A stretch of 24,803 bases of DNA from a virus. The position numbers and the translations under genes are program-made. The notes below the pieces were generated by a model, which made no database searches, had not been told where the DNA came from, and saw only the letters and a list, made by a program, of their open reading frames with translations. How positions within the stretch are numbered: position 1 is the first letter of the stretch; each line of letters starts with the position of its first letter. This document shows, piece by piece, positions 3,066-23,951 of the stretch. Where the stretch lies: positions 1-24,803 of the IMG/VR virus record IMGVR_UViG_3300045999_003662. One strand, 5' to 3'.

Positions 3066-4964
3066 ATGCCGGTAACTCCAGAGCAACAAGCCGCAATTGA
3101 TAGCGTTAGAGCTATGATGGCGCAACAGCAAGAGCCTCAACGGTTAAGGATGATGACACAAGGCGCTACGTTCAACACGGCTGACGAAATTGAAGCTGCT
3201 GCAAGGTCAGCGGCCACTGGCAGACCTCAGCAAGAGATTGAGCAAGAGATTCGGCAAGGTCTAAGAGCGTACCAACAGCAAAGTCCGATTGCTTCAAAAG
3301 CATACGAGTTTGCCGGCGCAGTTGTTCCTTCCTTGGCGGCAACTTTAGTAACAAGAAACCCAGCACCTGCTGTTGGCGTGTTTTCAAACTTTCTGCCAAA
3401 TATTGCGAAGGTTGCCGGCTTAGGCGCAGTAGAAGGGGCTGCACAAACAGTTGGCGGCATGGAACGACCCTTCAGTGAACGATTCAATGAGATAAGCCCA
3501 ATTGTATATGGTGGTGGTGTTGGCGCAATAACTGCTGGCGGTCTGCAAGCTGGTGGGACGGGGCTAGTTAAAGGTCTAGACGTTGTGACTGAGGCGGCAA
3601 GGTTTGCTTCTGGTAGTCGCGCTCGGAATGCCGTGACAAATGAAGTGCAGCGCATAGCAACTGAGGCTGGCATTGATGTAGCAGAGGCTGAGGCAAGATT
3701 ACTGCGCGGTGAGCTAATTGCAGAAGACCCTAATGTCGCATTGCAGCTTCGCGGGTACATGGGCCAAGGTGAAGCTGGTGCAAACATCAGGGGCACCATG
3801 CAAGACAGACCGGCAGCCACTAGGCGAACAGCGTTTGAAACAATACGAGGAGGGATTGCGGCTGGATTGGATCGCAACATTTACCGGCACATGAGAGCAA
3901 GTGCTGACCTGCTGCGCCAGTTGCAGAACAGGGAATACAAGCAGGCGTTTGAAACTGCGGGAGATGCGCCACAGGCTGTTGTCGATCAGATGTATGAAAC
4001 TATTGCTAGATTCCCAAGCGGCGGCAATAAATTGAAAGAGGCATTTAAGTCAGAGACTGGGCGTGACCCGTTCTTTGTAATTGATGACTTGGGTAAAATA
4101 AGTTTCAGAATGCTGCCGACCATGAGAGACGCAGAAGTATTGAGAAGAATTGTTGCTGATGAGGCTAGGCTATTAACTCGCGGAGGAGGAGCTGGGGCGA
4201 CTACAGGGGTTAATCTTGGCGAGGCTGAAACTTTATTGAGATCATCAATTGACGAAGCAGCTCCTCAGATTGGCGAGGCAAGGGGCAGGGCTAGACTGAT
4301 CTTCCAGCGCAATGACAACTATAAGGCTGGGCTGCAAGCTAATTCTAAAAGCGCAGACGAGATTCAAGTCGAGTTCAATGACGTTCTTAATTCCAGAGAC
4401 CCTGGGCTGATTCAGGCATATCGATTGGGATACCTTCAGAACCTGCAAGCTAAAATACAGGGTGGCAACAAAGCCTCGATTGTAAACAGGCTTACAGACC
4501 CAGAATCTAAAGAAGGCCTGATCTTCCGCACGATATACCCAGAAGACTTGCAAGAGGCTGCTTTGTCTCGGCTTGGAGTAGCAAGACAGGCTCAGACTGC
4601 GAGCACCACTGTTCTGCAAGGCTCCCAGACAGCGCAGACCCAAACGGCGCAAGCAAGGCAGGGGATGCTGTCCGATTCGGTGAGGACAAGCGGGTTGGCT
4701 GCTGATGCACTGCGCGGCGATGCTAACGCTGCGGCTGCAATTCTTGATAGAATGATTCAGCAATTTAGGCCAGGGCTTACTGATACAAACAGATCGGCAA
4801 TTGCTAGGATTCTACTTTCTTCAGACCCGGCAATTGTCAGACGGGCGCTGACTGACACCGAGGCTTTGAAAAGCCTGCAAGCTGCTATCATACCGCTTGC
4901 ACAGTCACCCTTAATGACAGCTTCACTCGCTGGAACAACTTTGGCACCTGAGACAGGGCAATAA
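3066..4964 (+). CDS. Large probable internal virion / DNA-ejection protein
   Basis: This is a 632-residue protein starting one base after the previous stop (TGATATG), with an AGAAGGGA ribosome site inside the end of the upstream gene. The N-terminal 80 residues are charged and Gln-rich. Residues about 78-180 hold several Gly/Ala-rich hydrophobic stretches (FAGAVVPSLAATLV, GGGVGAITAGGLQAGG) that could insert in or cross a membrane. The remainder is long alpha-helical, polar sequence. A hydrophobic, Gly-rich region inside a large helical protein is seen in ejected phage proteins that extend the tail channel through the envelope. No lysozyme or transglycosylase motif was found. It is the third and largest of the series, just before the fibre. 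The function is inferred from context. Confidence 0.55.
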   Translation: MPVTPEQQAAIDSVRAMMAQQQEPQRLRMMTQGATFNTADEIEAAARSAATGRPQQEIEQEIRQGLRAYQQQSPIASKAYEFAGAVVPSLAATLVTRNPAPAVGVFSNFLPNIAKVAGLGAVEGAAQTVGGMERPFSERFNEISPIVYGGGVGAITAGGLQAGGTGLVKGLDVVTEAARFASGSRARNAVTNEVQRIATEAGIDVAEAEARLLRGELIAEDPNVALQLRGYMGQGEAGANIRGTMQDRPAATRRTAFETIRGGIAAGLDRNIYRHMRASADLLRQLQNREYKQAFETAGDAPQAVVDQMYETIARFPSGGNKLKEAFKSETGRDPFFVIDDLGKISFRMLPTMRDAEVLRRIVADEARLLTRGGGAGATTGVNLGEAETLLRSSIDEAAPQIGEARGRARLIFQRNDNYKAGLQANSKSADEIQVEFNDVLNSRDPGLIQAYRLGYLQNLQAKIQGGNKASIVNRLTDPESKEGLIFRTIYPEDLQEAALSRLGVARQAQTASTTVLQGSQTAQTQTAQARQGMLSDSVRTSGLAADALRGDANAAAAILDRMIQQFRPGLTDTNRSAIARILLSSDPAIVRRALTDTEALKSLQAAIIPLAQSPLMTASLAGTTLAPETGQ

Positions 4965-5002
4965 TGCGATTCCATGAGAATCACGGGAGGGTAGCACCAT
5001 AG
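4964..5002 (+). other. 12-codon ORF bridging the ejection gene and the ATA-started fibre gene
   Basis: An ATG at 4964-4966 overlaps the stop of the preceding gene (TAATG) and opens a 12-codon frame ([12 protein letters not shown]) that ends at TAG 5000-5002. That stop overlaps the apparent ATA start of the tail fibre (4999-5001). The geometry would allow ribosomes that terminate here to restart on the fibre gene. It may equally be chance. No codon statistics can be judged on 12 codons. Confidence 0.2.
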
Positions 5003-7605
5003 CGCGTTACGGCGATCTAGATTCACAATACTTCGATGACGCAGGCGATCCTCTGATCTCTGGCAAAATCTACTTCTACGAGACCGGCACCACTACGCTC
5101 AAGACTACTTACTCAGACGTTAACCTCACGATACCGAACACCAATCCGGTGATCCTGACTGCTGCTGGTCGCCAGCCAAACATCTTCTTCGATGGCGTGG
5201 CTAAGGCTATTCTGACCACCAGTGCGAATGTTCAGATACTTGTGCGCGATCCAGTAGGCCAGACCACCAGTGCCTTTGGTGATGCGTGGGTATCGTCTAA
5301 GATTTACGGTGCCAATGACGTAGTGCAGGGCAGTGACGGCGAGTTCTACGTCTCTCTAGCAGCCAATAACGTCAACAACAACCCCGCGTCTACTTCTGGT
5401 TTCTGGGTTCTACTGTACTCGGTCGAATGGAATGCGGGCATAACGTACACAGAAGGCGCGGTCGTTACTGTTAACAATCTGCTTTATCAGTCTCTTCAGA
5501 ACGCAAACCTGAACCAGAATCCGACTACTGAGGCTGCCTACTGGGTGTTAATAAGCCTGGCTTATGTGTCCACTGTTACCTATACAGTCGGCCAGAACGT
5601 GGTCGGCCCTGATGGGATATTCTACACAGCGTTAAGAACAACTGTTGGCGACACTCCGGCATCCTCTCCAAGTGACTGGGTGGGAACGAGTGCTGCTGCT
5701 GCGGCCTCTGCAACGGCTGCTGCTGCCTCTGCGACTGCTGCTGCTGGCTCTGCATCAACTGCGACTACACAGGCCACCAACGCTGCCACAAGCGCGTCTA
5801 CGGCCACCACACAAGCTACTAACGCAGCGGCTAGTGCAGCGACTGCAACGACCCAGGCTAGTAACGCGAGCACATCAGCAAGTAACGCAGCCACAAGCGC
5901 AACGAATGCTGCTGCATCAGCAAGCACAGCATCTACGCAGGCAAGCAACGCTTCTACCAGTGCGACGAATGCGGCATCTAGTGCGACCTCTGCGGCGGCT
6001 TCAGCCTCTACTGCTACCACTCAAGCGTCTAACGCTTCGACCAGTGCGAGCAACGCTTCAACGAGTGCAAGCAATGCAAGCACAAGCGAGACCAACGCAG
6101 CGGCCAGTGCGTCAACTGCTACTACTCAAGCGACTAATGCTTCTACAAGCGCATCAAATGCAAGCACCAGTGCCACTAACGCAGCTTCATCAGCATCTGC
6201 TGCTAGTACATCTGCAACAAACTCAGCGGCATCTGCAACCAGTGCTGCTAACAGCTTTGACCTGTTTGACGATAGGTTCTTGGGAGCTAAAGCATCAGAC
6301 CCGACACTAGACAATGACGGCAACGCTCTAGTGGAAGGTGCTTTGTATTTCAACAGCACTACCGACACTTCAAGAGTTTATAACGGCACTGCTTGGCAGA
6401 ATGTTGCTCCGGTAGCCACAACGATTGACCTAGCGACTCAGGTTACGGGGACTCTTGCTGCTGCTAACGGTGGCACGGGAATTACATCGCCAGGCACACT
6501 TGGCAACGTCCTGACCTCAACCGGCACAACATGGTCAAGCGCACCTCCTGCGGCTGGCGGTCTTGAATATGTAGTGAAGACAGCCAACTACACCACTTTC
6601 GACAAAGAAGGCGTACTTGCAGATACCTCTGGCGGTGCGTTCACTGTGACGCTACCGGCTACTCCGGCAACAGGCGCTCAAGTAGTTGTGGCTGACTCAG
6701 GGTCGTTCTGGGGTACTAACAACCTCACGATAGGCAGAAACGGCTCAACGATTGGCGGTCTGGCTCAAGACCTTGTGTGCGACATTACCGGCGTAAGTGT
6801 GCAGCTCGTTTATGACGGCTCTACTTGGGAAGTCTACGCTCAGATCGGCGGTAACGGCGGCACTGCTGTAACGCTGGATGGTGTTCAGACGCTGACCAAC
6901 AAGACGTTAACTGCTCCTGTGATGACGGCTCCTGTATTGGGTACACCTGCAAGCGGGACGTTGACAAATGCAACTGGGCTACCTCTCACTACCGGCGTGA
7001 CTGGCAATTTGCCTGTAACTAATTTGAACTCAGGCACTTCTGCGTCAGCCTCTACATTCTGGCGTGGCGATGCTACTTGGAGCGCCCCAGCATCTGGCGC
7101 ACTCATTCTTCTCTCTACCGTCACTGCTTCTGCTTCTGCAACGCTTGATATTGAGACTACATTCAGCAGCACTTATGATGCGTATCTAATTGTCGGAACT
7201 GCATTGGTGTCAGCTAACGATGATTCTGCATTTAGCGCACGACTGAAAATTGGTGGCACATATCTGACCTCTGGATATTTGGGCCATTACCAAAATGTCA
7301 GAAACGGGTCTGCCACCTATTCTGGAGTTGGCAATGAAACTACATATATAGGACTGTCGGACGGAACTGGAAATGGCGCATCTGAAAGTTTAAATTTTAC
7401 AATGAAGGTTTTCAATCCAACAAGCACGACTAGGGAACACATCGTTGTGGGCGATATTGTGAACGTCAACTCTGCGCCCTTTTATAAAGGTGGCGCGTTT
7501 ATCGGCGGCAATACCACTACGGGCGCACTTACTGGTGTTCGTTTTTTCTTCGGCGGCAATACCACTTCCGGCAAGATTCGTCTCTACGGCATCGCCAATT
7601 CATAA
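4999..7605 (+). CDS. Tail fibre protein (trimeric, CBM-like repeats, heptad stalk), apparent ATA start
   Basis: This protein of about 868 residues should bind the host surface. The frame opens after a TGA at 4975-4977. The first ATG/GTG/TTG is the GTG at 5149, but the 50 codons before it are clearly coding: [20 protein letters not shown] continues into [13 protein letters not shown], a fibre N-terminus I recognise. The start is then ATA at 4999, with GGGAGG at 4985-4990, 8 bases upstream. Domains in order: an N-terminal virion-attachment region (1-90); three carbohydrate-binding-like repeats (about 97-137, 143-183, 188-228; pattern Y..G..V......Y.sl..n....P....W); an Ala/Ser/Thr heptad stalk (231-419); a conserved [19 protein letters not shown] segment (about 423-442); NGGTG and [10 protein letters not shown] fibre repeats; and a beta-rich tip to the end. 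The tip is somewhat AT-richer around 7180-7480. Fibre identity is firm. The ATA start could be a real rare start or a base error. Confidence 0.88.
5689..6255 (+). repeat. 21-bp degenerate repeats encoding the fibre heptad stalk
   Basis: About 27 tandem seven-residue units of the forms [21 protein letters not shown] and ATNAASS follow one another without a break between the CBM-like repeats and the FDDRF segment. Each unit puts Ala or Ser at fixed positions, as expected for a thin trimeric alpha-helical stalk. At DNA level the 21-bp units differ by many silent changes, so they are diverged copies and not recent duplications. Length change by slippage between units would lengthen or shorten the fibre. 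Confidence 0.85.
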
Positions 7606-15390: not shown

Positions 15391-16977
15391 TCAAAATACT
15401 CGTTTGGTGACTCTGAAATACTTTCCATCTTTCTTGTACTCGATTAGCTTGGGAAGCCTGCCTGCTGACAGCCGTGCGGCGATCTCGGCCAGGTTATCCG
15501 ACCGGACAGCATCCAGAGCATTACACTGTGCGGCTATTGATGCCAGCGTTTGCATTGCTCGCTGTCCTGCGTAGCCATCGTGCAGGATGGTAAAGAACTC
15601 GGTGATAAGAGGATCGGACAGCGCCCCGTAATAGTCCACCGCGATCATCTGCTTGCCGCTCACCCTGCTGGTGTGCTCTCGCCATCGCCAGTCTGTGACG
15701 GCCATCTCAATAGCGTCCATGCCCATTATGTCAACGTCACGCAGCACCAGCGGCTTTTTAAAAGGCTCTGGAAACGCCTCTCCGCAGGCTGGGCAAACGG
15801 TGGCAGATATGTACACCAGCTCTCCGCAGCTCTCGCACACCTTTACAGGCGCTTCGCCTTTTCCTTCCATGCCCTTCTTGCTCGGTGGCCTGACGCGAGT
15901 TATGGGGCCGTGCTCCTCTACCACTCCCGCAAAATCCAGCACCAAGCAATGATCGGTGTGCGACTTTGGGCGAAGACCTCTGCCAGCCATCTGCACATAT
16001 AAGCCTGGCGATGCAGTGGCGCGTAGCATAGCAATGAGATCAATGTCAGGGTGGTCAAAGCCGGTGGTCAGCACATTGGCATTGGTCACGGCGCGAAGCC
16101 TGCCTTCCTTGAAGTCTCGCAGGATCGTCTCGCGCTCTTTCTTGGGCGTCTTGCCGGTCACGCACTGCGCTGCAATGCCGCGATCACGCAGCACTGCCGC
16201 TACGTTCTCGGCGTGTTTCACCCCAGCGCAAAAGAACAGCCATGACTTGCGATCCTCGGCAAAGCTGATGACCTCATCTACCACAGCACGGTTATGATCC
16301 TCGGTGTCAAATGCCTCTTGCATCTCTGACTCGATGTACTCTCCTCCTCGCTTGTGCAGTCCGTCAACGGACAGCTTTTCGCGTGTCACCTTTGAGCGCA
16401 GCGGGGCCAGATACCCCTTGTGCAGCAGCTCCTCAATGCTGACAGGCTCGATCAGGGCGTCGAAGATGGCGGGTTTGTCGGTAATCATGCCATGCCCAAG
16501 ACGGTACGGCGTTGCAGTCAAACCAATCACGCGCAGCATGGGGTTGATCACCGTCAGAGCATCAATCAGCATCCGATACCCGCCCGTCTCCGCGATGCCG
16601 ATCAGGTGGCACTCGTCCACGATAATCAGGTCAACGTAGCCAATCTGATCGGCTTTGTTTCGCACCGACTGGATGCCTGCGAAGGTGATCGGCTCGGCAA
16701 GGTTGCGGCTGTTCAGGCTGGCCGAATAGATGCCCATCGGTGCGCCCTTCCAATGCTGGCGCATCTTTTCGGCGTTCTGGCTAATCAGCTCTTTAACGTG
16801 CGTCAGCATGAGCACTCGCGTTTCAGGCCAGTTTTGCAAAGCATCCTTGCACAGTGCCGCAACAATGTGGCTCTTGCCTGACCCGGTTGGGAGCACCAGG
16901 CATGGGTTGCCATTGCCGTTTTCGCCAAACCATTCATAGAGCTGGGTGATTGATCGCTGTTGGTATTCACGGAGCAT
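15391..16977 (-). CDS. DEAD/DEAH-box superfamily 2 helicase
   Basis: This is an ATP-dependent helicase of about 528 residues. Motifs by residue from M at 16977: LPTGSGKSH (29-37, Walker A), VDECHLIG (120-127, DECH Walker B variant), LTATPYR (153-159, motif III), TTGFDHPDIDL (304-314, motif V) and QMAGRGLRPK (329-338, motif VI). A C-terminal zinc ribbon follows (C381, C384, C395, C398). This is the plan of RecG/ERCC3-like phage helicases used in recombination-dependent replication. Several starts are possible (TTG 17001; ATG 16986, 16983, 16977). I chose 16977 because GGAGGA lies 10 bases upstream and MLREYQ is a typical beginning. It overlaps the upstream gene by about 11 bases. Confidence 0.93.
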   Translation of the reverse strand: MLREYQQRSITQLYEWFGENGNGNPCLVLPTGSGKSHIVAALCKDALQNWPETRVLMLTHVKELISQNAEKMRQHWKGAPMGIYSASLNSRNLAEPITFAGIQSVRNKADQIGYVDLIIVDECHLIGIAETGGYRMLIDALTVINPMLRVIGLTATPYRLGHGMITDKPAIFDALIEPVSIEELLHKGYLAPLRSKVTREKLSVDGLHKRGGEYIESEMQEAFDTEDHNRAVVDEVISFAEDRKSWLFFCAGVKHAENVAAVLRDRGIAAQCVTGKTPKKERETILRDFKEGRLRAVTNANVLTTGFDHPDIDLIAMLRATASPGLYVQMAGRGLRPKSHTDHCLVLDFAGVVEEHGPITRVRPPSKKGMEGKGEAPVKVCESCGELVYISATVCPACGEAFPEPFKKPLVLRDVDIMGMDAIEMAVTDWRWREHTSRVSGKQMIAVDYYGALSDPLITEFFTILHDGYAGQRAMQTLASIAAQCNALDAVRSDNLAEIAARLSAGRLPKLIEYKKDGKYFRVTKRVF

Positions 16978-17335
16978 TATCATCATCTCCTCCGTTATCA
17001 AACCAAGAGCAGCCAGCGCCTTTGATTATGCTTGTGTGCAAAAAAGTGATGCCTTTATGCTGTGAAAAAGCCAATATAAAATCATCGCAACCGCTTTCAC
17101 ACGTAAACTTTATGGAAAAAGAATCGCGCCTGGCGCTTGCATTGTCTGTTTCTGCATCATTTGAAAATGAAACATTGTGACCGCGAACGGTAACGGACGT
17201 TCCTTTTTTATCATCTTCGCAATAACGAGTGACTGATTTAACGACCAAATGATGCGTGTATGATTCTCCGCAAGACGGGCAAACCACCTCGGCATTGTCT
17301 CCAGATTGGCTCGTTTGTACGATTGGAAATATCAT
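16967..17335 (-). CDS. Hypothetical protein with Cys-pair motifs
   Basis: This is a 122-residue protein whose start overlaps the nuclease stop by ATGA. An N-terminal CPSCGESYTHH (19-29) and a later CESGC could form a zinc knuckle or ribbon. A central beta-like region (TSVTVRGHNVSFSN) and an acidic end (DNGGDDDN) follow. It is AT-richer than its neighbours in the leftward block, consistent with separate acquisition. No family is recognised. It sits between the Cas4/RecB-like nuclease and the helicase, so it may be an accessory of that set. Confidence 0.65.
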   Translation of the reverse strand: MIFPIVQTSQSGDNAEVVCPSCGESYTHHLVVKSVTRYCEDDKKGTSVTVRGHNVSFSNDAETDNASARRDSFSIKFTCESGCDDFILAFSQHKGITFLHTSIIKGAGCSWFDNGGDDDNAP

Positions 17336-18354
17336 CCACTTATCCTCGCCCCAAATTGTTCCCGCAGTGCAATCACGTTTTTGTCGTTGCTCAGTGCCAG
17401 TGGCAGGTTCGCCAGCAATTCTGCGCTGCTGTATCCGTCCTCGCCGTTTATAACTTCTTGACCTTCGACCTCATAGGCTGCCGACCAATCACCGAATCCG
17501 CCAGCCAGCTTCCACGGCACCAGATCAGGGTGCAGCACATGACTGTCGCACCCGGCATACTGCGCCTCGGTCGGTATCGTGTCGGCCCATCGAGCGCAGT
17601 GCCAGGTTCCGTCATTTTTTGGCGTGGCGTGAGCGCAGGTACGGCAGTTGACCTGCTCAGTCTTTTGCGTCTTGTGGCAGAAGCCATGCGCGGGGCAGAA
17701 CTTGCAGATGTACCAGGCTGGCGATGCGCCGGTAATCGGCTCGGGCATACGCTCAGTCAACGCAATGCGCTGGCCGCGATCAATGTATGCCCTGGCTGAT
17801 TCTTCGCACAGGCGCACTCTCTCGGTGTATATACGATCGTCATCTTTGCAGACGGCGTAGTACAACGCTCGGTCTACCTTTGCGCCGAGCATATAGACCT
17901 GCATCTGCGCCCAGTGGACGGGCTTGGCAAGCTGCACTCCGCTTTTCTCAAGATCATTAAATGACTTCAGGCCGTGGGTTTTGATCTCCAAAATGTGCGG
18001 CTTTTTCGGTGCCTCTGGCACACCCGACTCGATGATTCCGTCCATGCTGCCAGAAACGTGACAGCCGAAATCAACCCGGCTTTGCTCCTGTCCGGTGTGC
18101 GTAACGTGGCACCCGGCAGAGCGCAGGTCAGATACTGCGGTGGCCTCCTCCATCTGGCCGCGCCTGAACAATCGCAAGATGCGCCCTGAGAATGGCTCAA
18201 TAACTGCCCATCGAAAAGACAGCCACATCTTGCGCTCGCACTGCTCGCCAAGCTGTGAGCAGCCCATGTGGGGGCGTGGCTTCTCGGCGCGGGCTTCGTG
18301 CGCGGCGTCGATCATGGCCGAAAGGGTATTCATTGCTTCGGGAATTGCGGTCAT
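17332..18354 (-). CDS. PD-(D/E)XK nuclease, Cas4/RecB-like, probable Fe-S cluster
   Basis: This is a nuclease of about 340 residues. Active-site residues are visible as GSMDG (102-106, D105) and LEIKTHG (122-128, E123 and K125), followed by QMQVYMLG (150-157). An early Cys in QCERKMWLS (C39) pairs with a later CX2CX5C (C217, C220, C226), the arrangement that holds the iron-sulphur cluster of Cas4/AddB-type nucleases. More Cys follow (CRTC at 237-240). It probably produces single strands for the downstream annealing or strand-exchange step. The open frame extends to 18513 but overlaps the DUF669-like gene and a hairpin, so I place the start at ATG 18352-18354; no strong ribosome site precedes it. 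It overlaps the next gene by ATGA. Confidence 0.85.
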   Translation of the reverse strand: MTAIPEAMNTLSAMIDAAHEARAEKPRPHMGCSQLGEQCERKMWLSFRWAVIEPFSGRILRLFRRGQMEEATAVSDLRSAGCHVTHTGQEQSRVDFGCHVSGSMDGIIESGVPEAPKKPHILEIKTHGLKSFNDLEKSGVQLAKPVHWAQMQVYMLGAKVDRALYYAVCKDDDRIYTERVRLCEESARAYIDRGQRIALTERMPEPITGASPAWYICKFCPAHGFCHKTQKTEQVNCRTCAHATPKNDGTWHCARWADTIPTEAQYAGCDSHVLHPDLVPWKLAGGFGDWSAAYEVEGQEVINGEDGYSSAELLANLPLALSNDKNVIALREQFGARISG

Positions 18355-18361
18355 AAAATTA

Positions 18362-18383
18362 CAGGGACGGTTTCCCGCCCCTG
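18362..18383 (-). terminator. Stem-loop between the DUF669-like and nuclease genes, possible attenuator
   Basis: On the minus strand CAGGGGCGG, loop GAAA and CCGTCCCTG form a 9-bp stem with one G-U pair, followed by TAATTTTATG. It looks like a partial intrinsic terminator with a tetraloop. It stands between the gene ending at 18395 and the nuclease start at 18354, so it could lower expression of the distal genes or stabilise the upstream transcript. Confidence 0.6.
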
Positions 18384-18394
18384 CCCTGCTGTTA

Positions 18395-18886
18395 TTATTT
18401 TCGGCCCCAGGGTGGGGAGACTGGTGGCGTTGCTGCCGTACTTGCAGCGGCTGCCGGTGCAGCAGGCTTGGGCATTGCGCCGCCTTCGATGGCCTTCCAG
18501 CCCTTGATCTCATTCGACGGCTCGTACCCTTCGGAGGTCTTTGTCGTCAGCTTGATCGAGCAACGGTTGCCGATAAGCTGATCGGTGTCGGAGACCTTCG
18601 CCAGACCAATCGAGCGCATTACATCACCAAGCTGCTGCCGACCGATCTCCTCGGCCTTGGGGTTTGGATTGCGGATGTTGAGGTTGCCGAACACCACCCG
18701 CCCCTGATGCGTGGGGCCGGTAATGTCGTAGCGCACCTTGATATACTGCCCTGTACCCGCCTTCGTGGTCTCAAGGCTTGCTGCTGCGATGCTCGCCGTG
18801 TACCAGCCATCGGGCAGCGGGGTGTAGTCGCCTGTGTTGCCTTTTGGCAGGTCGTCGGTGCTGAAAGTCTCGTTTAAAAAAGCCAT
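18395..18886 (-). CDS. DUF669-like protein, candidate ssDNA-binding protein
   Basis: This is a 163-residue protein with a clear AGGAG site before ATG 18884-18886. The body (DGWYTASIAAASLETTKAGTGQ, split by a short turn; YIKVRYDITGPTHQGRVVF; LTTKTSEGYEPSNEIKGW) follows the DUF669 pattern. That phage family is often found next to recombination ATPases and is thought to bind single-stranded DNA. The C-terminus is a Pro/Ala-rich linker ending SPPWGRK, which recalls the flexible tail of SSBs but lacks the acidic end. It lies in an operon with the Sak4-like ATPase and the RecB-like nuclease. Confidence 0.75.
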   Translation of the reverse strand: MAFLNETFSTDDLPKGNTGDYTPLPDGWYTASIAAASLETTKAGTGQYIKVRYDITGPTHQGRVVFGNLNIRNPNPKAEEIGRQQLGDVMRSIGLAKVSDTDQLIGNRCSIKLTTKTSEGYEPSNEIKGWKAIEGGAMPKPAAPAAAASTAATPPVSPPWGRK

Positions 18887-18888
18887 GT

Positions 18889-19275
18889 TTATTTCTCCTG
18901 ATGTTCAATTGAAAAGGACGGACGTCCGGGTGTTGTTGTAATTGCTTCAAGCAATGCGGTGGTGATGCTCTCGTCAGCAGCCTTCCAGCTTCTGACATTT
19001 ATCTCAGGCTTCCAACGGAAAAGGCTCGACAAGTGATCTGTCAGGCCATTCTCTGCGGCGATATCTTGCAGCTTGTCGCTGTCGATCCTGTGATTCAAGC
19101 GACCCACCAGTTTGATCTTGAAGCCTGGCGCAGCGGCGTTCTCGGTGCCATCAAATGCCTCCGGCAGGCCGATCAAGGACAGCATTCTGTCCTCAATCAG
19201 TCGGCGCTCCTCCTGAGCTGCTTTCTCGGCGTCCTTGGCCGCTATCCATTGCGCTGACAAGTCGGACAGGCTCAT
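18889..19275 (-). CDS. Hypothetical protein in the recombination operon
   Basis: This is a 128-residue protein. Its start overlaps the Sak4-like stop (ATGA) and it ends 2 bases before the DUF669-like gene. The N-terminal part is a charged helix (SAQWIAAKDAEKAAQEERRL) and the middle a strand-rich stretch (GFKIKLVGRLNHRIDSDKLQ). Similar proteins occupy this slot beside Sak4-like ATPases in other phages, so a partner role in recombination is plausible. No specific biochemical function is recognised. Confidence 0.65.
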   Translation of the reverse strand: MSLSDLSAQWIAAKDAEKAAQEERRLIEDRMLSLIGLPEAFDGTENAAAPGFKIKLVGRLNHRIDSDKLQDIAAENGLTDHLSSLFRWKPEINVRSWKAADESITTALLEAITTTPGRPSFSIEHQEK

Positions 19276-19946
19276 ATTGCACCGCCGATCTTGTTAATGA
19301 CTGCTCCAATGTCTGGGGCTTCCCATGCGTCCAGCTTGCCGCTGCGATCCTTGGCAAGCCACAGTCCGTCTGAGTCGCACATCAGGGCGCGTTGAGCGAC
19401 TCCTTCGGCGTCCTTTTCTACGCGCAGGGCCAGCACCTCGTCGAAGAAGTAGGGCAGGGATTGACCAACCTTGTTACCCGGCATCGAAGGCGAGTAAAGG
19501 ATGCGCCCTGTTTCGTCTTGCGACTTCTCGACCTTCGCGGTCATCAGAACGTGCTTGCCGGGCAGATCACGGAATGCGCGGATAATGCTTGTCATCTGAA
19601 CTGCCATTTCGCCATAAGCCGCCCGCCCATCTTTGTTGACTGCCTTCTCATGGATCAGGACCACCTCGGCTATCTCGCTGATGCTGTCCAGCACAATCGA
19701 ATCAAAGTCTGCGCCGTGCTCGCCGCTGACATAATCAAACGCCTCGCGCAGAGTCTCCATGCTGGAAACCTCTATATAAGGCAGTGCAGCGCCCTGAATG
19801 GACAGCAGCCCGCCTTCGGCTGATATGATGATCGGGCGCGGCATACTTGCCGCCAGGGTGGTTTTACCCGCACCGGCATGACCGTACACCAGCAATTTGA
19901 CACCGTTGGCGGTCACTCCCGCCGTGTTTTTCAACTGTATTGCCAT
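19272..19946 (-). CDS. Sak4-like RecA/AAA ATPase (recombinase)
   Basis: This is a 224-residue P-loop protein with Walker A GHAGAGKTT (22-30) and a Walker B strand FDSIVLDSIS (81-90, acidic D87). Its size, the order of these motifs and TAKVEKSQDE in the C-terminal half match phage Sak4-type RecA-like annealases (AAA_24). They pair single strands during phage recombination, usually with a phage SSB. It is the first gene of the leftward block and heads an operon with the DUF669-like protein and a RecB-like nuclease. AAGGG precedes ATG. It is driven by the promoter at 20006-20034. Confidence 0.85.
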   Translation of the reverse strand: MAIQLKNTAGVTANGVKLLVYGHAGAGKTTLAASMPRPIIISAEGGLLSIQGAALPYIEVSSMETLREAFDYVSGEHGADFDSIVLDSISEIAEVVLIHEKAVNKDGRAAYGEMAVQMTSIIRAFRDLPGKHVLMTAKVEKSQDETGRILYSPSMPGNKVGQSLPYFFDEVLALRVEKDAEGVAQRALMCDSDGLWLAKDRSGKLDAWEAPDIGAVINKIGGAI

Positions 19947-20034: not shown

Positions 20035-20043
20035 CACACTTTT
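20027..20043. promoter_or_regulatory. 17-bp candidate operator, second copy at 14803-14819
   Basis: TATGTAAACACACTTTT here and TATGTATACACATTTTA at 14803-14819 match at 14 of 17 bases and point the same way. Each contains the -35 box of a putative leftward promoter at the same offset. The Cro/C1-like protein encoded just to the right is the obvious candidate to bind it. The link is inference. Confidence 0.4.
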
Positions 20044-20059
20044 GAAGGAGTTTCTAAAT

Positions 20060-20245
20060 ATGAATGAAATCATGCAGTTAGACGAAATCAAGCAAAAGCT
20101 GGCAGATCGTCGCCTCGCGGTCGTTGCAGATGGGGCGCGGCTGCACTACAACACGCTGCGGGCAATCCGGGACGGCGAGAAGACCAACCCTACCTTAGAG
20201 ACCATGCGCCGCCTGACCCTGTACTTTAAAGGGGCAGCAGAATAA
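20060..20245 (+). CDS. Cro/C1-like helix-turn-helix regulator
   Basis: This is a 61-residue protein starting at ATG 20060 with AAGGAG 9 bases upstream; an in-frame TTG at 20042 would include that site and is rejected. The body is a small helix-turn-helix domain: IKQKLADRRLAVVADGARLH, then YNTLRAIRDGEKTNPTLETM, then RRLTLYFKG, the layout of XRE/Cro-type repressors. It lies across a short AT-rich gap from the leftward recombination operon, as an early switch gene would. Its stop overlaps the primase-helicase start (TAATG). It probably controls one or both divergent promoters. Confidence 0.82.
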   Translation: MNEIMQLDEIKQKLADRRLAVVADGARLHYNTLRAIRDGEKTNPTLETMRRLTLYFKGAAE

Positions 20246-22266
20246 TGGCAGACCTTACCAAGATACTCGGCGGCCCGTGGTCGCCCCCGGCAGCGCAGAC
20301 AATAATAGTCACGCCACCTGAAATACAAATGCGGGAGGCCATGATTGCGGCAGGGCTTGAGGCTCCCGATCACATCGTATTCGATGGCAAGATTCACCGC
20401 TTCCGCACTGGCACCAAGGGCCGAGGCGGGCAGGACAAAAGCGGCTTCTATGTCGGCTTCCTCGATGGCGTCCCTGCCGGTCACTTCGGCTGCTGGCGGC
20501 TCGGGCTGGAGCACCCTTTCAAGGCCGATATTGGCCGCCAGCTCACGGTGGCCGAGGAGATGGCAAACAGCCGCCGCATGGCCGAGGCCCGCAGGATGCG
20601 CGACGAGGAGCTGGCGCGATCAAGAGAGGTGGCGGCGGACACGGTGAGCGAGATATGGATCAATGCCGGAGCAGCCAGTGCCGATCACCCGTATTTGGCC
20701 CGCAAGGGCGTACACCCGCACGGGGCAAGAGTGACTGGCGATGGCCGCCTGATCGTGCCGCTGTATGATGATGCAGGCGAGCTTTCCTCCCTGCAATATA
20801 TCAGCGCAGACGGCGACAAGAAGTACCACCCCGGCGGCCAGACCGGCGCAAGGTATTGGAGCGTTGGCGTGGTCGATGGCGCGAAGACCGTCTATCTGGC
20901 CGAAGGCTTCGCGACCGCAGCGACCATCCACGAAGTGACGGGCGCTCCCGTCTTCATCTCCTACAGCGCAAGCAACCTTGTGCCTGTGGCAGAGATAATC
21001 AGACGCCAGCACGATGATCTGGTCATCGTGGCCGACAATGACGAGTCAGGCGTTGGCATGAGATACGCAGAGCAAGCGGCGGCGAAGTACGGCGCAAGGG
21101 TCATCATGCCGCCCCTGCCTGGGGACGCGAACGACTACGCTCAAGCGGGGCATGACTTGATCGGCCTGCTACTGCCAAAGGCGGATGGCTGGCTTATCCC
21201 TGCCGATTCCTTCTGCGCCCAGCCTGCCCCGATAGGTTGGCTGGTCAAGCACTGGCTCCAGCAGGATGCGCTGATCATGGTCCACGGCCCGTCCGGGGGC
21301 GGGAAAACATTCGTGGTGCTCGATATGTGCCTTCGCATTGCCTCTGCCAATGCCGACAACACAACAACTTGGCAAGGCAATCGGGTCAAGGCAGGGGCAG
21401 TGGTCTACCTTGCCGGAGAAGGCCATCACGGCCTGCGTGGGCGCATTGCGGCGTGGAAGCAGCATCACAGTGCGGGTGCGCTCGATATGTACCTGAGCAA
21501 AGACGGCTGCGATCTGAACACGCCTGCCGGGTATCAGAGGGTGCGTGACGCGATACGGGGCGGGGGCATAACGCCAAGCATCATCATCGTGGACACCCTA
21601 CATCGTTTCCTTTTGGGCGACGAGAATTCCGCCCAAGACGCCAAGACCATGCTGGATGCCTGCAACGCTTTGATGCAGGAGTTTTCCTGCTCAGTGATTC
21701 TGGTGCATCACACTGGCGTGTCAGAGGAGGCACAGCACCGTGCCAGAGGATCAAGCGCATGGCGTGGCGCTCTGGACATCGAGATCAGCATAGTGCCACC
21801 AAAGGCCGAGGATGCCCCCATCGAGATCGTCCAGCGCAAGAGCAAGGACGCTGAGACAGCCATGCCTCTCTATGTCCACCTGAAGTCTGTGCCAATCACC
21901 GGCTGGCTTGATGAGGACGGCGAGCAGGTAACGTCCGCCGTGATCGTGGCCGCAGATGCTCCCGCCAAGACGGAAAAGCAGGACAAGCTCTCAAAGCACA
22001 AAAAGATGTTTGAGTCTGCCTGGTGGCATGGCGGGGCAGAGGAGCGAGGCGGGGTGCCGTATGTGTCAAGATCGGCGTTTATTGAATACCTTGTTGCCAA
22101 CCAGGGGCTGACAGAAGGCACCGCAAAGATGTACACCAAGCCATCGGCGATCGGAAAGCCTGTCAGCGATCTGCTGATCGGCGAGATTATTGCATCGCAT
22201 GAGCATGGCTGGATCATGCTCGACGAGGTAGAAGCAAGCGCCATGATGATGAGAAAAACAGGGTAA
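20245..22266 (+). CDS. Primase-helicase with TOPRIM and RepA-like ATPase domains
   Basis: This is a 673-residue replication protein. The N-terminal region (1-140) lacks the zinc finger of T7-type primases. A TOPRIM domain follows, with VYLAEGFATA (217-226, E220) and VADNDESG (262-269, D264 and D266). The C-terminal half is a RecA-like helicase of RepA/AAA_25 type: GPSGGGKT (348-355, Walker A), IIIVDTLHRF (446-455, Walker B), LVHHTGV (486-492) and the RGSSAWRGALD block (501-511). It would unwind and prime phage DNA at an origin. No phage polymerase is visible in the window. It is cotranslated with the repressor and followed directly by the repeat array at 22286-22395, a natural candidate for its binding site. 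Confidence 0.9.
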   Translation: MADLTKILGGPWSPPAAQTIIVTPPEIQMREAMIAAGLEAPDHIVFDGKIHRFRTGTKGRGGQDKSGFYVGFLDGVPAGHFGCWRLGLEHPFKADIGRQLTVAEEMANSRRMAEARRMRDEELARSREVAADTVSEIWINAGAASADHPYLARKGVHPHGARVTGDGRLIVPLYDDAGELSSLQYISADGDKKYHPGGQTGARYWSVGVVDGAKTVYLAEGFATAATIHEVTGAPVFISYSASNLVPVAEIIRRQHDDLVIVADNDESGVGMRYAEQAAAKYGARVIMPPLPGDANDYAQAGHDLIGLLLPKADGWLIPADSFCAQPAPIGWLVKHWLQQDALIMVHGPSGGGKTFVVLDMCLRIASANADNTTTWQGNRVKAGAVVYLAGEGHHGLRGRIAAWKQHHSAGALDMYLSKDGCDLNTPAGYQRVRDAIRGGGITPSIIIVDTLHRFLLGDENSAQDAKTMLDACNALMQEFSCSVILVHHTGVSEEAQHRARGSSAWRGALDIEISIVPPKAEDAPIEIVQRKSKDAETAMPLYVHLKSVPITGWLDEDGEQVTSAVIVAADAPAKTEKQDKLSKHKKMFESAWWHGGAEERGGVPYVSRSAFIEYLVANQGLTEGTAKMYTKPSAIGKPVSDLLIGEIIASHEHGWIMLDEVEASAMMMRKTG

Positions 22267-22285
22267 AGCACTGTATATTCATTCA

Positions 22286-22395
22286 GGTAACTAGGTAACT
22301 TTTACGAGGTAACTCAGTTACCCAAAGGGGGGCAAAACAGCCGAATTAGGGTAACTTTAGGTAACTCTCTCCTTAGGGAGAGTTACCAGTTACCC
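22286..22395. repeat. Iteron-like GGTAACT array with nested palindrome; candidate replication origin
   Basis: Eight copies of GGTAACT occur in 110 bases: direct at 22286, 22294, 22308, 22350 and 22360; inverted (AGTTACC) at 22316, 22381 and 22388. The right half folds on itself: GGGTAACT (22349-22356) and GGTAACTCTC (22360-22369) pair with GAGAGTTACC (22378-22387) and AGTTACCC (22388-22395), 18 bp of arms with a 3-base bulge and an 8-base loop. Short iterons plus a palindrome right after the primase-helicase gene suggest an origin. An operator for the packaging/late promoter just downstream is the alternative. Confidence 0.75.
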
Positions 22396-22472
22396 TCGAG
22401 GATGCGCGAGATTTTCATGCGGCTAGCGCAGTGTTAACTCGCATCACGCTTGGCAAGATTATTGGGGCTTTT

Positions 22473-22501
22473 TTGCCTTTGGGATTAAGGGCGGGTATGA
22501 T
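22473..22501 (+). promoter_or_regulatory. Putative rightward promoter for the packaging/late genes
   Basis: TTGCCT (22473-22478) and TATGAT (22496-22501) are separated by 17 bases and lie about 45 bases before the ATG at 22546. The -10 box is one base off consensus. Nothing else in 22396-22545 looks like a gene. This is the only rightward promoter I can support between the repeat array and the terminase genes. Confidence 0.5.
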
Positions 22502-22545: not shown

Positions 22546-22686
22546 ATGCCGCTTAAAAAAGGTTATGGCAAGAAGACGATCAGCAAGAACATCAAGGCTG
22601 AGATGAAGTCGGGCAAGCCTCAGAAGCAGGCGGTGGCTATTGCTATGAGCATGGCAAAGAAATCAAAGCCAGCGAGGTATGAGTGA
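22546..22686 (+). CDS. Small basic phage protein, DUF6496-like
   Basis: This is a 46-residue Lys-rich protein with a strong GGAGG site 5 bases upstream. It reads [20 protein letters not shown], then [20 protein letters not shown], the compact pattern of DUF6496 proteins found near packaging or structural genes in many phages. It is strongly basic, with no membrane or catalytic motif, and may bind nucleic acid. The stop region overlaps the GTG start of the methyltransferase fusion (GTGA). Confidence 0.8.
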
Positions 22687-23951
22687 ACAAGTTCCCGTCT
22701 ATAAAAACTGTGCTGGTCGCTGACCTCATTCCCTATGCCCGCAACAGCCGCACCCACAGTGAAGAACAAGTCACACAGATCGCGGCATCCATCAAAGAGT
22801 TTGGTTTCCTGAACCCGGTCATAATCGACGGCGAGAAAGGCATCATTGCCGGTCATGGGCGCGTCATGGCGGCAAAGAAGCTGGGCATGACAGAGCTGCC
22901 AGCGGTCGAGGCCAGCCACCTTACAGACGCACAGCGCAGGGCGTATATCATTGCCGACAACAAGCTGGCGCTGAATGCAGGCTGGGATGATGAGATGCTG
23001 CGGGTGGAGTTTGCGGAGCTTACCGAGGCGGGTTTTGATCTGGACTTGACCGGCTTTTCGCTGGATGAGATCGGGGCTTTGCAGATTGAGGAGATACCGC
23101 CAGGGCTTACTGACGAGGACGCAGTGCCGGAGGTTCCCGCGCAGCCTGTTACCGTTGAGGGCGATGTGTGGCTGCTTGGCCGGCATCGGTTGATGTGTGG
23201 GGATAGTACCAGTATTGATGCGGTGGACAAGTTGATGGATGGGCAGAAGGCCAGCATTTGCTTTACTTCGCCTCCATATAACGGAGATACAAAATCAAAA
23301 CATGGCGATTATTACGCCACAGACAAAACCCAAAAATTTTATGGCAATGATGGATTTCAAGATAACCTACAAAGCGCGGAATATATTGATTTCACATCAA
23401 CAGTTCTTGGAAATTGTTTTAATGTTGTTGATGGCTATATCTTTTGGAATGTAAGCTACAACGCAAACTCTAGATTTGAATACATAAAACAGATAGAAGG
23501 CTTTTTGCCAAACCTTATTGAGCAAATCTGTTGGAAAAAAACTTCAAATTTCCCATTAAAAGGCTCAATGATGCGGCAATGGGAGCCGGTATACGTTTTC
23601 TCAACGCATATGAGGCCGTTAGGACTTAAGGAAGTAACAGGAAACCATTGGGAGATAAGCAATACTGGGGCGCAACATGAAAGTCATAAAGCCTGCTTCC
23701 CAGTCGCTTTAGTCGAGAAAGCCATTGCAATGTTTTCAGGCATGGCAAATTCTGTACTTGACCCATTCGGTGGAAGTGGCACAAGTCTAATTGCAGGAGA
23801 AAAACAAAGCTGCCAAGCATTCTTAATGGAGCTTGACCCAAAATACTGCGATGTCATCATCAAACGCTGGCAAGACTTCACCGGCAAGCAGGCAACGCTT
23901 GAGGCTACTGGCGAGACATTTGAGGTGCTAAGTAATGTCCGGCTCCCCTGA
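22683..23951 (+). CDS. ParB-like / DNA methyltransferase fusion (adenine-N6 or cytosine-N4)
   Basis: This is a 422-residue fusion read from GTG. Residues 1-135 are a ParB/Srx-like domain ([12 protein letters not shown] at 19-30 and [15 protein letters not shown] at 53-67), and 160-410 a beta-class methyltransferase with TSPPYN (195-200, catalytic) and DPFGGSGTS (360-368, AdoMet binding). It should methylate phage DNA at a specific site and so protect it from host restriction; there is no cognate endonuclease. Bases about 23265-23830, the methyltransferase core, are near 32-35% GC by eye in sampled lines, against about 65% in sampled flanking sequence, with different codon choice. That suggests the core was exchanged by recombination. 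The ATG at 22679 is in another frame. Confidence 0.9.

Follow-up and report, generated by a model that had tools for sequence, protein, structure and literature searches.

Which function has an array of eight short repeats that follows directly on a phage primase-helicase gene? The array is part of the virus record IMGVR_UViG_3300045999_003662, a partial record of 24,803 bp (this whole stretch is referred to as the window), and consists of the word GGTAACT in five direct copies (beginning at positions 22286, 22294, 22308, 22350 and 22360, + strand) and three inverted copies (22316, 22381 and 22388, - strand), which span positions 22286-22394. The number and orientation of the copies given in the initial annotation were thereby confirmed. 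Outside the array, the word occurs once more in the whole window, at position 3071. With both strands counted, a shuffled window of full length contained 1.25 ± 1.24 copies, and nine copies were not attained in any of 100 shuffles; because these counts are so low, eight copies in 109 bp are far beyond chance. The stop codon of the primase gene is at position 22266, and downstream of it the first plausible ORF begins at about position 22546. The array is therefore intergenic, and two further earlier statements held as well, namely that it lies directly after a TOPRIM-RepA primase-helicase gene and that coding does not explain it. Several short repeats adjoining an initiator gene, as they characterise iteron origins, are present here as eight 7-mers. 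On the evidence of the sequence comparisons given below, the array is very probably the replication origin of a water-borne phage family. The region comprises the following features:

20042-20245, + strand: small Cro-like HTH protein of 67 aa (61 aa if an inner ATG is the start), whose gene immediately precedes that of the primase (phrog_18104)
20245-22266, + strand: primase-helicase and putative initiator of 673 aa with Toprim_3 (216-301), RepA-type AAA_25 helicase (320-493) and C-terminal winged helix (Pfam, PHROGs, PDB, AF2)
21973-22263, + strand: winged helix at the C-terminus (aa 577-673), which is predicted to read the iterons and is exchanged with the array (AF2, swap pattern, tree comparison)
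22129-22131, + strand: codon of Met629, a residue of the recognition helix (aa 624-630) that predicts the iteron word (mutual information, pair comparison)
22271-22286, + strand: CTGT-N8-TCAG resembling a LexA/SOS box; it overlaps the first iteron, and its position is conserved in the window's clade
22286-22322, + strand: left iteron block with GGTAACT at 22286, 22294 and 22308 (+) and at 22316 (-)
22327-22344, + strand: box GGGGGCAAAACAGCCG, which separates the two iteron blocks and is retained despite changes of the iteron word
22348-22396, + strand: right iteron block with GGTAACT at 22350 and 22360 (+) and at 22381 and 22388 (-); hairpin with a short A/T-rich loop
22401-22415, + strand: GATGCGCGAGATTTT, a variant of the GATGCGGCG-like downstream box found in most relatives

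The 673-aa protein carries TOPRIM domain, helicase and winged helix on one chain. Its only relative in the PDB by sequence was RepA of RSF1010 (1g8y, E 8e-6, residues 322-502). The last 97 residues were confidently predicted as a winged helix by AlphaFold2 (pLDDT 95.4); the fold matches of this C-terminal domain in the PDB were generic winged helices without significant E-values, and a search of a plasmid collection revealed no relative of it. The one strong viral match was a Prim-Pol protein. In ct3Oc712 (L210, positions 3173-5065) Prim-Pol replaces TOPRIM, and the same winged helix is found on a protein with Prim-Pol, PriCT_1 and AAA_25, together with a GGGACA array. The putative reader module is therefore common to two primase types.

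The right block contains two nested inverted repeats, an inner one of 10 bp (22360-22369/22378-22387) and an outer one of 9 bp (22348-22356/22388-22396). The predicted fold of positions 22348-22396 as single-stranded DNA is a 21-bp stem (9 + 12 bp) interrupted by a single 3-nt bulge, with an energy of -17.1 kcal/mol and z = -6.3. A cruciform of 10 + 8 bp had been described here before; the last four copies pair indeed, but the outer arm comprises 9 bp and not 8, and the inner stem can be extended by two pairs.

Relatives were drawn from viral contigs, phage records and a few metagenome-assembled bacterial bins. A raw scan of viral contigs with a triple GGTAACT pattern returned many contigs. 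Conservation of the array in relatives had been set in advance as a check, and the same layout was found directly downstream of the primase gene in nearly all of about 80 relatives, among them five with complete records (the isolates CGphi29, 1N2-2, XX1924 and PB15, and the circular ct3Oc712). The left iteron block comes first; a box of the GGGCAAAA type separates it from the right block, whose inner pair closes a hairpin around a short A/T-rich loop. The box GGGCAAAA is concentrated at this site, with 49 of its 78 copies in 620 kb lying ≤150 nt past the primase stop codon. The hairpin stems vary in sequence among the relatives and keep their pairing, which is covariation (32 distinct hairpin strings, including a few from other inverted repeats of the same region). 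In two relatives the array is shifted downstream by inserted sequence, by 0.3 kb in L037 and by 1.0 kb past the primase gene in L299. No array was detected after the primase gene (after position 5902) of ct76p945 (L209), in which the C-terminal domain is truncated. The next gene in this phage encodes a thymidylate synthase on the opposite strand.

The iteron words differ among the relatives and comprise GGTAACT, GGGTACA, GGAACG, CGAAACA, CCGTACC, GCCCCCT, GACCCT, GGGACA, GGTTCA and CGGACC, the last one in L213. The copies inside one array tend to change their word together. Mixed arrays exist nonetheless; GGAACG arrays often retain one GGTAAC, and L044 appears to be intermediate.

The word varies with the C-terminal winged-helix domain (aa 577-673) and with neither the remainder of the primase nor the neighbouring HTH protein. 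L016 shares the word of the window; identity to the window's protein is 90-100% over the C-terminus and 58-70% over the larger part of residues 1-320. The opposite was observed for L011-L014, which have another word and are mostly 85-100% identical over the first 320 residues and 58-67% over residues 601-673. When pairs with ≥95% N-terminal identity were compared, C-terminal identity averaged 97.7% in pairs with the same word (n = 94) vs 62.9% in pairs with different words (n = 69). L036 and L075 share a stretch of 2,146 identical nt that ends 254 nt ahead of the stop codon; C-terminus and array then diverge, and from +250 the two are again 98-100% identical. A stepwise route is seen in L033 and L044, where the C-terminus has changed at few positions, with Val replaced by Gln at position 629, the array is altered as well, and the flanking DnaA boxes are conserved. 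On a tree of aa 1-560, 25 word changes are needed, vs 12 on the C-terminal tree. The best reading of these comparisons is that winged helix and array form a specificity cassette, which would be rapidly exchanged or co-mutated step by step.

Of all alignment columns, column 629 was the most informative about the word (mutual information 1.97 of 2.27 bits). The residue at this position differs in all 102 close pairs with different words and in none of the 114 close pairs with the same word. Val occurs with GGAAC, Gln or Met with GTAAC, and Leu with GTACA, while Asn accompanies several words. This rule was correct for 31 of 31 C-terminal sequences outside the set from which it was formed, which do not amount to 31 independent tests because many are near relatives; phylogenetically independent contrasts agreed in 12 of 12 cases (p = 0.0005). 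The displaced array of L299 also keeps the word predicted by residue 629. A universal code of one residue was rejected, because the distant L216 has Gln together with CCGTACC, and other residues therefore contribute.

Further evidence bears on an origin function. In the 25 kb surrounding the arrays, 127 perfect DnaA boxes (TTATCCACA) were counted, vs 5 in 580 kb elsewhere in the same loci; such boxes flank 52 of 76 arrays. Near the array of the window no DnaA box was found, and the same applies to its clade. A motif CTGT-N8-[AT]CAG is located just upstream of the first iteron, often overlapping it, in L015, L016 and L018-L024. This LexA-like box occupies the place where other clades carry DnaA boxes, and it overlaps the primase stop codon in L015, L021 and L022. 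The number of such matches in the window is not significant (3 vs 1.95 expected), and the site is suggestive through its conservation. The cumulative GC skew, which had been proposed as a check, reached its minimum about 1-2.6 kb from the array in CGphi29, XX1924, PB15 and 1N2-2. This is near a divergent gene boundary, and gene direction could explain the skew; in ct3Oc712, the fifth relative with a whole record, the minimum disagrees with the position of the array. The initial annotation had considered the missing polymerase unusual. This view was not upheld, since the annotation of the complete relatives CGphi29 and 1N2-2 contains no DNA polymerase either, which fits the use of a host polymerase. 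The origin reading itself gained support from the conserved layout, the DnaA boxes at the arrays of most relatives and the joint change of word and winged helix.

Other functions of the array were also considered. It is improbable that it represents an operator or attenuator, by which the primase would regulate its own gene or the downstream genes would be controlled, with the winged helix as repressor. The position between the primase gene and the next genes, the LexA-like box just upstream of the array in the window's clade and a weak promoter-like match at positions 22473-22501 would agree with such a function, but the array follows the primase gene instead of lying at its promoter, GGTAACT is absent upstream of this gene, no terminator-like site was found, and most arrays are flanked by DnaA boxes. 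In addition, the predicted reader of the array is a helicase-primase. A packaging, recombination or partition site, which would serve the terminase or the ParB-methyltransferase, is very improbable. The genes of the terminase small subunit (1.5 kb downstream) and of the ParB_N-N6_N4_Mtase protein follow the array, but the word tracks the C-terminus of the primase, and in CGphi29, 1N2-2 and ct3Oc712 the directly following genes differ whereas the array stays with the primase gene.

HTH proteins often bind short inverted repeats, and a gene of this type is adjacent; a 61-residue repressor had been named as one candidate binder. The ORF is present and encodes 67 aa if an upstream TTG is used as start codon, and its product matches the transcriptional regulators of phrog_18104 (E 5e-7). 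However, its sequence is identical in L036 and L075, and likewise in L032, L043 and L082, although the array words differ within both groups. The HTH protein was therefore excluded as the reader, and the idea that the array is its target can practically be dismissed. An RNA element was rejected too, as the region gave one sub-threshold Rfam hit, which lies outside the array, and no terminator-like site. TIGR arrays are defined by alternating edge and loop repeats with variable spacers of about 9 nt and a Tas/Nop protein; the array of the window, in which a single word recurs in both orientations and such spacers are absent, was not assigned to this class. A TasH locus is present in CGphi29.

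We consider it highly probable that the array is an origin served by a self-contained initiator-primase-helicase, with winged helix and array as specificity cassette; conserved layout, co-switching of word and C-terminus, cassette exchange, stem covariation and the DnaA boxes of the relatives are all sequence observations that point to it. The 673-aa protein would act as a single-chain initiator, whose C-terminal winged helix would bind the GGTAACT iterons in duplex DNA via the recognition helix around Met629. Binding would gather several initiator copies at the two blocks of inverted iterons, where the RepA-type ring helicase would assemble and unwind the DNA. The TOPRIM domain would then prime, and a host polymerase would copy thereafter. 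The hairpin of the right block probably forms on the exposed single strand or as a cruciform, because its stem covaries and its loop consists of A/T, and it may be a site of priming or loading. The cassette would evolve in two ways: phages would exchange it, and the recognition helix and all iterons would mutate together step by step.

Several known systems resemble parts of this arrangement. SaPI Rep and SCCmec Cch2 are initiator helicases whose C-terminal domain reads short iterons directly downstream of their own gene, and self-loading was proposed for them (PMC7581432). The phages share the C-terminal domain, which is predicted to bind DNA from its fold and coevolution, and the iterons directly downstream of the gene. 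Unlike the D5/DUF927 helicases of SaPI and SCCmec, their protein contains a RecA-fold RepA-type AAA_25 helicase fused to a TOPRIM primase; the covarying hairpin, the GGGCAAAA box, the DnaA boxes in relatives and words that differ between nearly identical phages are further differences. In the alpha protein of phage P4, which acts at ori and crr, primase, helicase and origin recognition are likewise located on one polypeptide and the iterons are short, but the helicase belongs to SF3 and not to the RepA type, and the array of the window follows directly after the gene. In the IncQ plasmid RSF1010, RepA, RepC and RepB' provide helicase, iteron binding and primase as separate proteins at oriV. 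The RepA helicase domain is related (1g8y, a hexamer in RSF1010 and a predicted ring here), and iterons and hairpins occur in both systems; instead of separate RepC and RepB' proteins, the phages have one chain, and their iterons comprise 6-7 bp. Because the tested helicase type and protein organisation differ, the phages were filed neither in the SaPI nor in the RSF1010 family.

A joint exchange of reader and origin is known from the PLE satellites of Vibrio cholerae, in which the DNA-binding domain of RepA and the origin are swapped together and a change of the iterons escapes the origin-directed nuclease Odn (PMC8263062). Putative reader domain and origin are also exchanged together between the relatives studied here. 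PLE is a satellite with semi-palindromic iterons of about 30 bp and a RepA_N reader, whereas phages with many different 6-7 bp words and a C-terminal reader are concerned here. In phage lambda, O is not a helicase and carries its DNA-binding domain at the N-terminus, and the iterons are part of the O gene itself. Ectopic copies of the cognate origin block infection by lambda (PMC4488673). The DNA-binding domain of a lambda-type initiator is cognate to the phage iterons, as it is predicted for the winged helix, but in the window the array follows the gene, the helicase is in the same chain and the reader is C-terminal.

With the precedents of PLE and lambda, selection on origin specificity is plausible in these phages. 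An iteron origin is ordinary in principle; the speed and cleanness of the change in specificity are unusual. Swaps of word and reader may let near-identical phages keep separate copying controls. Somewhat tentatively, origin recognition could be regarded as a hypervariable compatibility type, with a cassette exchanged or re-coded in concert under selection to escape cross-recognition, be it by co-infecting phages, by satellites or by nucleases that target origins, and with a reader that moves between TOPRIM and Prim-Pol replicases. In a test of incompatibility, phages of the same sample gave no signal of avoiding the same word, as 8 of 26 pairs share a word vs 9.2 expected. Replicon compatibility, which is known from plasmids and PLE satellites, may face strong diversifying selection in ordinary phages. 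For an uncharacterised group of phages, the analysis provides a probable origin, where the examined record tables annotate none. It also yields an evolutionary data set of many joint changes of a DNA-reading domain and its eight matched sites, from which the recognition code becomes readable and testable residue by residue.

Some other genes of the window were assigned. Directly past the putative origin region, positions 22683-23951 encode an N6/N4 DNA methyltransferase with a fused ParB_N domain. A leftward cluster for replication and recombination (15391-19946) comprises a DEAD/ResIII helicase, a Cas4-like exonuclease, a DUF669 protein and a Sak4-like ATPase. Positions 5149-7605 encode an 818-aa protein with a long repeat segment rich in Ala, Ser and Thr, which is likely a tail fibre.
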